Positions 23,613 to 33,489 of a DNA stretch of 64,000 nucleotides are shown here, piece after piece. The position numbers and the translations under genes are program-made. The notes below the pieces were generated by a model. The model saw only the letters and a list, made by a program, of their open reading frames with translations. It did no database searches and had not been told where the DNA came from. Numbering within the stretch: position 1 is the first letter of the stretch; the number at the start of each line of letters is the position of its first letter. Source of the DNA: Acidobacteriota bacterium (GTDB lineage: Bacteria > Acidobacteriota > JAAYUB01); contig JAAYUB010000111.1 of assembly GCA_012517875.1 (NCBI GenBank), forward strand, positions 1-64,000, given 5' to 3'.

Positions 23613-24482
23613 TCACCCGCGGCGGGGGCGGGCACCGCGCCCTCTCAGTCGGCGCAACACATCCAGATTCATCCGGTCAGCGTCACCGTCTTCGGTTTTC
23701 TCCGTTTCGATGACTCCCGGCAAGGCCCGCAGGCGTGGATCATTAAGGAGCAGCCGGAAAGCGGCGACACCTAGAGCGCCCCGGCCGATGTGCGCGTGTC
23801 GATCCACTCGGGATCCCAATTCCCGTTTCGAATCATTCAGATGCAGCGCCCGCAGGAATTCGAACCCCACCGTCCGCTCGAATGCGGCCATGGTGGTCCC
23901 ATACGACTCGGCGTCTCGGAGGTCGTACCCCGCTGCGAACAGATGGCTGGTGTCCAGACAGACGCCCAGACGCTCCGGCCGGTCCACGCCCGCCAATATG
24001 TCACGCAGGTGCTCCAGCCGATGGCCCAGCGAAGTGCCCTGGCCGGCCGTGTTCTCCAGCACCAGACCCACGCCGGAGCCGGCGGTGAGCCGGATGATCG
24101 TTCGCAGCCCCTGGACGATGCGACGGATTCCCGTCGATTCCCCGTCGCCGCCATGGGCGCCCGGGTGCAGGATCACGAACGGGAGCTCCAGTTCTGCACA
24201 CCGCTCCACCTCCTGCACCATGGCGTCGACGGACCGGCGCCGGATGGCGGCGTCAGCCGAAGCCAGGTTGACCAGGTAACAGTTGTGGGCGAAGACGGGG
24301 TCGATGTGAGTGGCGCGGCGCAGCGCCTGGAACTCACGCACCGCATCCGGCTCCAGCCGCTTGCCCACCCACCGGTTGTTGTTCTGAGTGAAGATCTGAA
24401 CCGTCTCGCATCCTACGGCGGCCCCGCGGGACAGGGCCAGGCCGATTCTGCCGGCGATGGACATGTGGGCGCCGAGTCTCAC
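23613..24482 (-). CDS. nfo: Endonuclease IV
   Basis: The 289-residue AP endonuclease cleaves DNA at abasic sites with a trinuclear zinc centre. Ligand motifs are visible in order: HPGAHGG, LENTAGQG, CLDTSHLFAAGYD, LHLNDSK and DRHAHIGRG. I chose the GTG at 24482 because GAGGGAA lies six bases upstream and the product then begins with the family's RLGAHMSIAGG-like start. It lies 10 bases after the PduS-like gene on the same strand. It is convergent with the zinc-ribbon gene; the two stop codons abut. Confidence 0.96.
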   Translation of the reverse strand: MRLGAHMSIAGRIGLALSRGAAVGCETVQIFTQNNNRWVGKRLEPDAVREFQALRRATHIDPVFAHNCYLVNLASADAAIRRRSVDAMVQEVERCAELELPFVILHPGAHGGDGESTGIRRIVQGLRTIIRLTAGSGVGLVLENTAGQGTSLGHRLEHLRDILAGVDRPERLGVCLDTSHLFAAGYDLRDAESYGTTMAAFERTVGFEFLRALHLNDSKRELGSRVDRHAHIGRGALGVAAFRLLLNDPRLRALPGVIETEKTEDGDADRMNLDVLRRLRGRGARPRRG

Positions 24483-24492
24483 CGCCGTTCCC

Positions 24493-25848
24493 TCATCCGG
24501 CTTGAATCTCGACGCTCCGGCCGGCGGCGCGGACCACCCCACCGATGGAGGCATGAAACGGGGTGTGCCGGCCCTGACCCACGACCTCCCCGGGGAGCAC
24601 GTGCTGCCCGGCGGTGACCGCCGGTTCGGCGCTGCCGCCGCCGAATTCAGCCAGATCGATCCGGACATGATCCACGCCGACCACCGGGCCGCTGAAAGCG
24701 TTCGGCGCGTCGTAGCGCGCCAAGTCAAGCCGCGCCATCACATACCGGATGGGCAACCCCTTGCGATGATAATCGGGGTGAAGCGTGTAATCCGCCTTGC
24801 CGCGCCTGGCGGACGGGGCCAGCTTCCGCTTCATGGCGCCGATCAGCCGCCGCGGCGTGATCCGGAGCGGACAGGCGATGAGTGAGCAGACGCCGCACTC
24901 GCAGCAGTACCATGCGATGTGGTCGGCGTCCGCCGGCTGCTCGAGCACCTGCGGGGCTCGTCGCATCAGCAGGTGCGGTTGGATGTCGTGGCCCAGCAGG
25001 TAGCGGGGGCACAGCTCGGTGCAGGTGAAGCATTGGTCGCAGACCGACATGGATACGCGCGCGGCCCGCTCCAGCGACTGGACGCGTTCTTCAACCGCGG
25101 GATTCTGCGCCGGCAGAACCAGGATGCCGCTGGTGGTTTTTCGGATGCCGAAATCCAGCTCGACCAGTTCGCCCATCATCGCGCCGCCGGCCAGAAAACG
25201 GGGCTCGGGGCAGGTGATGCCGCCCGATTGTTCCACCAGGTGCGCCAGGGGGGTGCCGATGGGGGCCTCGAACGTCGACGGCCTGGCCACGGCGCCGGCG
25301 ATGGTGACGAAGCGGTGTGTCACGGGGCGGCCGTCCAGCGCGTCGTAGATGTGCGCGAGTGTCTGGACGTTCTGGACCAGGCAGCCCACCGCCAGGGGGA
25401 TGCCCCCCTGCGGTACGATGCGCCCCGTGGCCGATTGAACCAGCAGGTGCTCGTCCCCGGACGGATACGTGTCGTGGAGTTCCAGCATGCGGAAGCCCGG
25501 ATACGCCGCCGCCAGCCGCGCCATGTGCTCCCGCAGGCGCCGTCGTTTTTTCTTAACAGCCACGACGATGTCGCGGATGCCGAGCAGACCGCGGATCACG
25601 TCCGCGGCGGCCAGCACCTTGTCTCCGTAGTGGAGGAGGCAGTAGTAGTCCGCATGGAGCAGGGGTTCGCATTCCGCACCGTTGAGGATCAACGTGTCGG
25701 CGCCCGGTGCGCCCTCCAGCTTACGCCACGTGGGGAAGCCCGCGCCGCCGGCGCCCACCACCCCGGCCGCCCGGACGCACGCGACCAAATCACGGAGCTG
25801 CTCGTTGCTAGTCTTTTTGGATGATGTCCAGGAAGTATTTGGCTTCAT
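24493..25848 (-). CDS. PduS/RnfC-like SLBB iron-sulfur flavoprotein
   Basis: About 451 residues. The N-terminal Complex I 51-kDa-like nucleotide/FMN domain has VVGAGGAGFPTW, and an SLBB region sits near IGTPLAHLVEQSGG. Two ferredoxin-type clusters follow: CDQCFTCTELCPRYLLG and CCECGVCSLIACP, the second with one extra spacer residue. The C-terminus is a barrel-sandwich domain. That order, and CTELCPRYLLGH in particular, matches PduS, the cobalamin reductase of propanediol microcompartments, better than RnfC, whose sandwich domain is N-terminal. The start is uncertain: the ATG at 25848 overlaps the upstream gene by 41 bases, and a TTG at 25788 is the alternative. Confidence 0.8.
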   Translation of the reverse strand: MKPNTSWTSSKKTSNEQLRDLVACVRAAGVVGAGGAGFPTWRKLEGAPGADTLILNGAECEPLLHADYYCLLHYGDKVLAAADVIRGLLGIRDIVVAVKKKRRRLREHMARLAAAYPGFRMLELHDTYPSGDEHLLVQSATGRIVPQGGIPLAVGCLVQNVQTLAHIYDALDGRPVTHRFVTIAGAVARPSTFEAPIGTPLAHLVEQSGGITCPEPRFLAGGAMMGELVELDFGIRKTTSGILVLPAQNPAVEERVQSLERAARVSMSVCDQCFTCTELCPRYLLGHDIQPHLLMRRAPQVLEQPADADHIAWYCCECGVCSLIACPLRITPRRLIGAMKRKLAPSARRGKADYTLHPDYHRKGLPIRYVMARLDLARYDAPNAFSGPVVGVDHVRIDLAEFGGGSAEPAVTAGQHVLPGEVVGQGRHTPFHASIGGVVRAAGRSVEIQAG

Positions 25849-26914
25849 ACATGTTGGCGACGAACTTGCGAGGAGGCACCAGCATAGCCGCGGCGGTATC
25901 CTCCTTGAGACACTCCTTGTCCACAAGGATGTAGTCCTTGTTCAGAAAGGGAATCCGCAGCGTCGGGGAAAGCCCGAGAAAATTCTGAATGTGCTTGCCC
26001 TGAACCTGGGGATAGACCAGGTTGATGATCTCGCGGTCATCGGTCATGGGGGATGTGTCGATGAAATTCTTCACCATCATGTTGATCCATTTGGTGTTGG
26101 TGCACAACTCCAGGGTATTGATCACATGCGGCTTTTCCACAATCAGGTAGGTGGCCGACTCGATGTCGGTGTTGTTGTAAAACGTGCGGCCAATCAGGTA
26201 ATGGCCGCGCAGCGAGTAAATCTTGCTCTTCTGGAACGCGACTTCATCCAGCGAGGCCACCGAGTACTTTTTCAGATCGACTTTGATGATGTGCTTCTTC
26301 ATCTCGGGATCTTCTTTGACCGCCGTGATGGCCTTGTCTTCGGGGATGACGATGTTGTTCAGCCGGTCGAAAATGGTATACACCTTTTCGAAATGGAAAA
26401 TCTGGAAACCCACGTCCAGATTGGTTTTCATGCGATCGGCCAGACCGGCGTCAGCCTGGACGGGGTTTTCGCGGATGAACTGCGTGTTGGACATGGTGCC
26501 GCCGAGGAATGACGGATCCCGGAGGGGGGTGCGCTCCAACGGCCGGGTCTTGCCCTTGTCATCCGGATACAGGATGTCGTAGAAAAACTCCTCCACGGAT
26601 GAAAACGTGTGGATCAGTTTGGTCTTGTCCAGCACCAGCATGTCGTAACGGGTGGGTTTGAGATAGTTGTAGAACGAGTTGATCAAGACCTTGATGTTTT
26701 TCTTGGCTAGGACATCCTTGATGATCATCCCACTGAGGATGAGGTAGGGATTCAAGTACGCCTGGTAGATCCGCGCATCGATGTTGCCCGGCATCGGGTC
26801 GACTTTTTTCGCGAACAAAGCGATCTTTGTCTGCGGCAGCAGATCGTGGTTGGAATCGGAATTGTCGTAGAAAATGATGTGGTATTCCGCCCTGGAATCC
26901 GTTTCTTGAACCAT
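25808..26914 (-). CDS. Unrecognised 368-residue cytoplasmic protein
   Basis: I do not recognise this family. The start at 26914 (MVQETDSRAEYHIIFYD) follows GGGGAA. There is no signal peptide or obvious membrane helix. The sequence is rich in Asp, Lys, Asn, Ile and Tyr, with AT-leaning codons unlike the flanking GC-rich genes, and it looks like a globular alpha/beta protein. Phrases such as KYDMLVLD-like strands and HFEKVYTIFDRLNN give no catalytic motif I know. Its 3' end overlaps or abuts the start of the PduS-like gene, suggesting co-expression. Function unknown. Confidence 0.75.
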   Translation of the reverse strand: MVQETDSRAEYHIIFYDNSDSNHDLLPQTKIALFAKKVDPMPGNIDARIYQAYLNPYLILSGMIIKDVLAKKNIKVLINSFYNYLKPTRYDMLVLDKTKLIHTFSSVEEFFYDILYPDDKGKTRPLERTPLRDPSFLGGTMSNTQFIRENPVQADAGLADRMKTNLDVGFQIFHFEKVYTIFDRLNNIVIPEDKAITAVKEDPEMKKHIIKVDLKKYSVASLDEVAFQKSKIYSLRGHYLIGRTFYNNTDIESATYLIVEKPHVINTLELCTNTKWINMMVKNFIDTSPMTDDREIINLVYPQVQGKHIQNFLGLSPTLRIPFLNKDYILVDKECLKEDTAAAMLVPPRKFVANMYEAKYFLDIIQKD

Positions 26915-31926: not shown

Positions 31927-32724
31927 ATGGAACCCGATTCTTTGCGGCAGCTCATCCAGGAAATCGTCCGGCGGGAGGTGGAGCGCGTTCAGGCCCCCGT
32001 CGCGCCAATCGCGCCGGTGGCCTCCGTTGCCTCCGCCGCACCGCCACCGGTCGCGGGAGGGGGCACGGCGCCTGCTCCGGCGTCGCCGCCCACCGGGAAC
32101 TGCCTGCGGGAGTTTCGTTTCGCGGGCAAGGTGCTCACCGCCTCCGACTTGGCGGAGATTGCCCCGCAGACGGATGTGGTGATCGCCCCGGGCACAATCG
32201 TCTCGCCCCTGGTTCATGATGTCGTCCGCGAGCGCCGGCTCCGGCTGCGTGTCGAGGGTGACACCGGACATCCCACGATCGCGGTGGGTTCCGACCACGG
32301 CGGTTTCGCGCTGAAGGAGGCGGTGAAACGCTGGCTTCAGGAGTGGGGGTATCTGTTCTTCGATTATGGCACCCACACCGACAGCGCCGTCGACTATCCG
32401 GAATTCGCCCACAAGGTGGCTCGGGCCGTGGCTGATAACCACCAGGACCTGGGCATCATCGTCGACGGCGCCGGCATCGGCTCCTGCATCGCGGCCAACA
32501 AGGTGCCGGGGATCCGGGCGGCCCTCTGCCACGACGCCGCCACCGCCCGCAACAGCCGGGAGCATAACTACGCCAATGTCCTCACGCTCGGCGGGCGGAT
32601 GCTCCAGCCGGCCGACGCGATGGTCGTCGTGCGCACGTGGCTGGACACGCCGTACGGTGAGGAACGGCACGCCCGCCGCGTCCGTCTGATCGGTGAGATC
32701 GAGAAAAAGTACCTCAAGGACTGA
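31927..32724 (+). CDS. rpiB: RpiB-like isomerase with N-terminal microcompartment-type targeting peptide
   Basis: At 265 residues it is over 100 longer than ordinary RpiB (about 150). Residues 1-22 form an amphipathic helix (LRQLIQEIVRREVERV), then a Pro/Ala/Gly linker (about 23-56), as in encapsulation peptides of microcompartment cargo. Residues about 57-115 form a small domain with the phrase VVIAPGTIVSPLVHD, like a module I recall from other microcompartment-associated proteins. The RpiB domain (about 116-265) keeps SDHGGF, AANKVPGIRAALCHD and REHNYANVL. The catalytic cysteine position (Cys66 in E. coli) is Asp180 in VDGAGIGS. deoC follows after three bases. Confidence 0.88.
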   Translation: MEPDSLRQLIQEIVRREVERVQAPVAPIAPVASVASAAPPPVAGGGTAPAPASPPTGNCLREFRFAGKVLTASDLAEIAPQTDVVIAPGTIVSPLVHDVVRERRLRLRVEGDTGHPTIAVGSDHGGFALKEAVKRWLQEWGYLFFDYGTHTDSAVDYPEFAHKVARAVADNHQDLGIIVDGAGIGSCIAANKVPGIRAALCHDAATARNSREHNYANVLTLGGRMLQPADAMVVVRTWLDTPYGEERHARRVRLIGEIEKKYLKD

Positions 32725-32727
32725 GCC

Positions 32728-33489
32728 ATGAAGCCTCTCCCCGACCTGAACCGACTGGTCGACCGCATCACGGACGAGGTGATGCGGGAGCTGGCCCGGC
32801 GTGCCGCGGTGCCGGCCACCGCCGGCGGGCCGCAGCCGGCGACTTTGGCGGGCATGATCGACCACACCATCCTGAAACCGGATGCGGTCCGCGACGACAT
32901 CGTCAAGCTGGCACGCGAAGCCCTGCAGTACGGGTTCGCCGCGGTCTGCGTGAACGCCTGCTGGGTGCCGCTGGTGGCCGAGATCCTGCGGGGTTCCACG
33001 GTCAAAACATGCGCGGTGATCGGCTTCCCCCTCGGGGCGATGGTGACGGAGCTGAAAGTCGCGGAGGCGCGCCGGGCGATCGCGGACGGCGCCGCCGAAA
33101 TCGATATGGTGATCAATGTGGGAGCGCTCAAGGGCGGCGAGCTGGACTTCGTCGAGAGCGACATCCGGGCCGTCGTGCAGGCGGCCCGGGAACAAGGCGC
33201 CATCGTCAAGGTCATCCTGGAGACGTGCCTGCTCACCCGGGACGAGAAAGTCACCGCCTGTCTGCTGTCCAAAAAAGCCGGGGCCCAGTTTGTGAAGACG
33301 TCAACGGGCTTTGCGTCCGGAGGCGCCACGGTGGCCGACGTCCGGCTGATGCGCGAGACAGTGGGCGACACCATGCAGGTGAAGGCCTCGGGCGGCATCC
33401 GAAACTACTCCACGGCGGTGGAGATGATCCAGGCGGGGGCGACGCGGATCGGCACCAGCTCGGGCGTGGCCATTGTGTCCGGCCGCTGA
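32728..33489 (+). CDS. deoC: Deoxyribose-phosphate aldolase with N-terminal targeting-type helix
   Basis: The 253-residue enzyme cleaves 2-deoxyribose 5-phosphate to acetaldehyde and glyceraldehyde 3-phosphate. The Schiff-base Lys190 lies in VKTSTGF and the second lysine in VKASGGIR; MIDHTILKPDA opens the barrel. About 40 residues precede the usual start: an amphipathic helix (LNRLVDRITDEVMREL) and a short Ala/Pro/Gly linker, like the microcompartment targeting peptide on the adjacent RpiB. The active site looks intact. Acetaldehyde is the toxic volatile intermediate that compartments retain. Confidence 0.95.
   Translation: MKPLPDLNRLVDRITDEVMRELARRAAVPATAGGPQPATLAGMIDHTILKPDAVRDDIVKLAREALQYGFAAVCVNACWVPLVAEILRGSTVKTCAVIGFPLGAMVTELKVAEARRAIADGAAEIDMVINVGALKGGELDFVESDIRAVVQAAREQGAIVKVILETCLLTRDEKVTACLLSKKAGAQFVKTSTGFASGGATVADVRLMRETVGDTMQVKASGGIRNYSTAVEMIQAGATRIGTSSGVAIVSGR

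Follow-up and report, generated by a model that had tools for sequence, protein, structure and literature searches.

A second PduS-type protein encoded beside nfo, without a pduT neighbour, in an Acidobacteriota lineage with scattered microcompartment genes

PduS is described, in excerpts of PMC2982820, as a protein that passes electrons from NADH to FMN and on to two 4Fe-4S clusters, reduces corrinoids and binds PduT via its own N terminus; the second cluster of the Citrobacter protein is given there as C309xxC312xxC315xxxxC320. For GRM loci, a passage of PMC6325248 states that PduS is almost always encoded beside pduT, and passages of that paper and of PMC4207490 describe the role of PduS as unexplained in compartments that lack B12 chemistry. 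In the open-licence literature we found nothing on PduS together with endonuclease IV, or on PduS together with microcompartments of Acidobacteria. Here, we describe a second PduS paralog, encoded beside nfo, which is an exception to the pairing of pduS with pduT in the other loci examined.

The window, that is, the whole stretch of 64,000 nucleotides which was analysed, is contig C111 of a 4.0 Mb genome in 182 contigs (G000). The features relevant here are as follows.

23613-24482, minus strand: nfo, endonuclease IV (deoxyribonuclease IV); TIGR00587 match of 267 bits (cut-off 129.65)
24493-25848, minus strand: PduS1, PduS-type NADH/FMN/2x[4Fe-4S] oxidoreductase of 451 aa without PduT linkage, assigned from domains, motifs, tree and model
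25808-26914, minus strand: upstream orphan protein, 368 aa from a conserved ATG
31927-32724, plus strand: rpiB, with an N-terminal extension of about 115 aa; profile match from residue 117-118
32728-33489, plus strand: deoC, with an N-terminal extension of about 39 aa; TIGR00126 match from residue 40

The PduS1 frame is read from an ATG at 25848; the listed open reading frame starts upstream of it, at a TTG (25926). Its Pfam domains are arranged as Complex1_51K (residues 25-168), SLBB (181-226), Fer4_17 (270-329) and RnfC_N (395-442), which is the order published for PduS in a passage of PMC6325248. RnfC_N scores 20.7 bits (E 4e-4) in PduS1, under the Pfam cut-off of 25.6 bits, and higher in two other proteins of the class, the shell-linked paralog PduS2 (46.7 bits) and the copy in genome G005 (32.9 bits). 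The protein contains CTELCPRYLLGH, the phrase which an earlier note on this DNA had read as that of PduS, as well as both tetracysteine motifs, and its cofactor motifs are intact. Four-domain order, C-x2-C-x2-C-x3-C plus C-x2-C-x2-C-x4-C and the glycine-rich NADH motif are shared with PduS of the Citrobacter and Salmonella compartments, as described in parts of PMC2982820 and PMC6325248. The differences lie elsewhere: PduS1 adjoins nfo, neither pduT nor any shell gene, and its genome also has a PduS of the usual kind. The four-residue last gap of the second cluster, pointed out in the earlier note, is present, but it is not a distinctive trait of PduS1, as CxxCxxCxxxxC was found in 48/48 PduS-type proteins, with a three-residue last gap in 11/11 RnfC (59 sequences). 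Of the 71 columns that are conserved across 43 shell-linked PduS proteins, 58 are identical in all five PduS1 sequences, and the 31 residues preceding the glycine-rich motif compare with 11-34 in 34 of 37 PduT-linked PduS proteins. Within the genus, dN/dS of PduS1 is 0.067-0.112, well below 1, rising to 0.25-0.27 in comparison with G003, a distance at which synonymous sites approach saturation; the values for PduS2 are 0.26 (one pair) and 0.39-0.40.

The possibility that the gene encodes RnfC of a respiratory Rnf complex must be considered. PduS1 matches TIGR01945 (rnfC) with 222 bits, under the cut-off of 245.95, and RnfC chains were the best matches in a PDB sequence search (7zc6 chain C at 151.9 bits). 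Among solved structures, the AlphaFold2 model (mean pLDDT 80, pTM 0.82) likewise pointed to RnfC chains first (E 2e-22, TM-score about 0.6), one of them an NADH-bound entry, and to NuoF-type flavoproteins next. Such a result is expected from the shared core of 51K, SLBB and dicluster domains, with no PduS chain among the listed matches. RnfC/RsxC proteins differ from PduS1 by domain permutation, by the x3 second cluster (RnfC) and by forming a separate clade: residues 396-441 of PduS1 align with the N-terminal part of RnfC in 7zc6, which means that RnfC_N, N-terminal in RnfC, is C-terminal here, and the PduS/RnfC split was supported 100/100 in both a 49-protein and a 59-protein tree. The earlier note had named clustering with RnfC, together with rnfABDGE elsewhere in the genome, as the outcome that would speak against PduS; the window protein grouped with PduS. 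A search of its own genome with PduS1, at E up to 0.01, returned two relatives, both PduS-type, and PF13375 matched the window gene only, the second copy being cut by a contig end before its PF13375 domain; with both searches, no RnfC was detected in the G000 assembly, which is 96% complete. Similarity to PrdC (145.7 bits) is far under the cut-off of 490. An RnfC of a respiratory complex is therefore extremely improbable at this locus, and from its sequence we firmly assign the window protein as a full-length, true PduS-family member, in agreement with the earlier note. An RnfC-type gene was seen in the relative G003 (contig C119).

The class to which the window belongs is sampled by six genomes, G000 to G005, of which G000-G002 are of the same genus and G003 of the same family. 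When 396 Acidobacteriota genomes were searched with a PduS alignment, 80 matched at E up to 1e-30, and we divided these at a gap in the E values into two groups of 40: genomes with a match of PduS type (E up to 1.2e-80), and genomes whose matches are all of RnfC type (E 3.3e-61 or worse). Two PduS-type matches per genome were found in 4/40, namely G000-G003, all of one family, a count which rests on the best four candidates per genome. Comparison of neighbourhoods revealed that PduT adjacency, a typical though not defining feature of PduS like a place in a shell locus, is lacking in PduS1 and its counterparts (0/5), as against 35/35 other Acidobacteriota PduS loci, which are all PduS-type loci outside the class. 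In each of the 35, a PduT-type BMC-T lies downstream on the same strand, its match starting at most 189 nt after the end of the PduS match; nfo occurs in 0/35 of the flanks fetched for these loci. A further 80 named loci were sorted by motif alone, not by neighbours. Five have the x4 motif: in four, which lie outside this lineage, PduT comes directly after pduS, and the fifth is PduS1 of G002, which has nfo beside it. The other 75 named loci are x3/x3, and thus RnfC-type by motif, and their fetched flanks contain neither PduT nor nfo.

Instead of pduT, nfo directly follows PduS1 in 5/5 genomes with an nfo-linked PduS, which represent two families of the order. In G000 the gene starts, with GTG, 10 nt past the PduS1 stop codon; in G005 it overlaps the PduS gene by 4 nt. 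The five carriers make up one small lineage, and it is likely that they record one evolutionary event rather than five.

As regards the origin of PduS1, its nearest relatives are the PduT-linked proteins of G025 and G017 (support 93/91 in the 49-protein tree and 88/88 in the 59-protein tree), which share with it the absence of the QH of the RnfC_N domain. This QH is missing from 5/5 PduS1 sequences; we rejected its loss as a sign of uncoupling from PduT, since the PduT-linked proteins of G025, G017, G279 and G384 are also without it. A single clade of PduS1 and PduS2 was not rejected by the AU test (p 0.54 when the G005 copy is included, 0.58 when it is left out), and it is possible, as far as the trees go, that PduS1 arose by duplication of the shell-linked copy within the class. 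The G005 copy grouped weakly with PduS1 (80/76 with 49 proteins, 72/74 with 59), and a tree placing it elsewhere was not rejected either (p 0.72); in view of both results we dropped the claim of orthology and call this copy a positional counterpart only. The tree from each constrained search was slightly better than that from the unconstrained one.

The earlier note had supposed a putative compartment, and shell genes are present in the genome: one BMC-H, one BMC-T with two domains and three BMC-P, on contigs C173, C21 and C144. What could not be seen in the window is that these genes have a PduS of their own, PduS2, on another contig and 41% identical to PduS1, so that the window copy is the second one, set apart. 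C173 ends within PduS2, which comes after BMC-H and BMC-P, and C21 has the BMC-T about 0.16 kb from one of its ends. The order BMC-H, BMC-P, PduS2, PduT-type BMC-T is intact in G001, G002 and G003; by comparison with G001 and G002, C173 and C21 probably adjoin each other, with the break close to the end of PduS2. The BMC-T resembles PduT-like structures, and the cysteine of its CPGK stretch aligns with those of 3nwg and 3pac. A cysteine in such a stretch is described as an Fe-S ligand in a passage of PMC6325248. As the protein reaches 129 of the 250 bits required by TIGR02526, "PduT-type" denotes similarity here and not an equivalog call. Throughout the phylum sample, PF00936 was found in 39/40 genomes with PduS-type proteins compared with 4/40 of those with RnfC only (Fisher p about 1e-16 for these two groups, a value which ignores kinship; 173/396 overall). 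The fortieth genome, G005, has no PF00936 match but contains two BMC-P genes, and we withdrew the statement that it has no shell. BMC-P genes without a PF00936 match were seen in both G004 and G005, which may mean that the assemblies are incomplete or that the shell system is reduced. In G000, G004 and G005, a BMC-P gene was read directly before a gene resembling D-2-hydroxyacid dehydrogenase and purine genes (L009 6328-7704, L194 3487-4761 and L195 5063-6295); a hydroxyacid dehydrogenase is mentioned for ACI compartments in a part of Sutter 2021.

As to the type of this compartment, DeoC (PF01791) and RpiB (PF02502) in a genome with shell genes are features of the SPU type. Together with an acylating aldehyde dehydrogenase (AldDH) and PduS they recall the SPU and FRAG types of Axen 2014 and Sutter 2021, while three BMC-P genes and the scattering of genes recall FRAG (portions of PMC4207490 and PMC8217296), a likeness drawn without the original authors' HMMs. 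The enzymes of G000 differ from both in not being beside the shell genes, since rpiB-deoC is on C111 and the shell genes are on C173, C21 and C144, and no PduL was found. The AldDH gene, on C3, scores 605.9 bits with TIGR02518, just under the cut-off of 620.1, which its G005 counterpart passes (648.2). Judged by gene content, the compartment is similar to the SPU type, with its genes dispersed as they are in FRAG. Its CoA recycling is unexplained, because PduL was found in 0/6 genomes of the class. The acylating AldDH (L145 3637-5373) has a long C-terminal tail containing a TPLARDLG stretch; similar stretches, we assume, occur in other compartment proteins.

Within the window, rpiB is 6.1 kb from PduS1, matching the distance of 6 kb to rpiB-deoC given in the earlier note, and it lies within about 6 kb in 3/3 members of the genus. 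The pair is not near PduS1 in the fetched contig of G003 (15.7 kb) or stretch of G005 (20 kb), and its proximity may therefore be incidental. The N-terminal extension of DeoC resembles an encapsulation peptide, with a hydrophobic moment equalled by 15/5000 shuffles. It is possible that the extension of RpiB is an encapsulation peptide plus linker, though its amphipathicity is not above that of shuffles (804/5000 reach it); the tail of the genome's own AldDH is equalled by 1502/5000, and only DeoC clearly beats the shuffles. The N terminus of PduS1 is equalled by 461/5000 and has no evident encapsulation signal, which counts against an organelle role; it should be read beside RpiB and AldDH, both putative cargo, which fare no better.

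A separate matter is the orphan gene upstream of PduS1. The two overlap, as stated in the earlier note; with PduS1 starting at the ATG at 25848, the overlap measures 41 nt, and in G003 there is none. The orphan gene adjoins PduS1 in G000-G003 and is on another contig in G005, and its product was found in 5/396 genomes of the phylum, all of this class. The protein is extremely conserved (dN/dS 0.007-0.017 within the genus). Searches of Pfam and NCBIfam at E 0.001 and of PADLOC at 0.01 gave no match for it, further matches against PDB and Pfam were all insignificant, and its predicted structure is useless (mean pLDDT 35). In G005, the nfo-linked PduS is preceded by a gene for a radical SAM/SPASM protein (L149 897-2387), nearest to the heme-synthase AhbD/NirJ models and under their cut-offs.

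From the lack of a co-encoded PduT we infer that PduS1 is not a conduit of the standard, shell-anchored kind. The simplest reading of its sequence and position would be an NADH oxidoreductase that is either soluble or anchored in some other way. By what is known of the family, it would take a hydride from NADH onto FMN and send single electrons on through two [4Fe-4S] clusters, most likely unanchored, either in the cytosol or in the lumen, reached by another route. DeoC would yield acetaldehyde, which the acylating AldDH would oxidise to acetyl-CoA with NAD+; one possible site of action for PduS1 is the conduit end that lies opposite to PduS2/PduT. A second, unanchored PduS handling the NADH and electron balance of the same scattered SPU-like compartment is the reading that we favour, with a probability of about 0.5; its tie to the compartment stands at about even odds because it is based on genome-level co-occurrence and genus-level proximity. 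The fact that PduS-type genes fall in shell-bearing genomes (39/40) lends support to a compartment role. The linkage to nfo suggests no organelle function and counts against it.

One plausible alternative, which we regard as possible and somewhat less probable, is that PduS1 derives from a compartment PduS but has become a redox protein free in the cytosol, where it takes part in another process; it might, for example, be a general NADH:Fe-S or corrinoid reductase, and PduS2 alone would serve the compartment. The earlier note had offered service to the putative compartment and a free redox protein as its two options. The absence of a PduT neighbour in all five genomes, the constant adjacency of nfo, the existence of a PduS2-PduT pair and the proximity of rpiB-deoC in the genus only would all agree with it. 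However, every genome of the phylum sample that has a PduS-type gene, all five PduS1 carriers included, also has some shell gene, and most of the family-conserved columns are unchanged in PduS1. It is also conceivable, but unlikely, that PduS1 still binds PduT in trans, serving as a duplicate subunit of the normal conduit or as one for particular conditions, and that the position of its gene has no functional meaning. The genome does offer a BMC-T of PduT type in which the CPGK cysteine is conserved, the compartment genes are scattered anyway, and the clade of PduS1 with PduS2 that was not rejected leaves room for duplication within the class; yet pduS and pduT are found together in the 39 other loci examined. 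PduS-PduT contact via the PduS N terminus, as published in the excerpts of PMC2982820, also bears on docking in trans, and the N-terminal length of PduS1 does not discriminate. As for nfo, its linkage may be an operon convenience only. That PduS1 and Nfo form a functional unit, in which a compartment redox protein was recruited into an operon for DNA damage or DNA-sugar salvage, appears quite improbable; if true, the breakdown of abasic sites or of DNA would be coupled to an organelle in which deoxyribose phosphate is burned.

Returning to the unanchored second PduS, the presence of one PduT-linked and one PduT-free PduS in the same lineage means that comparison of the two paralogs can tell apart two possible roles, that of a shell conduit and that of a soluble reductase.
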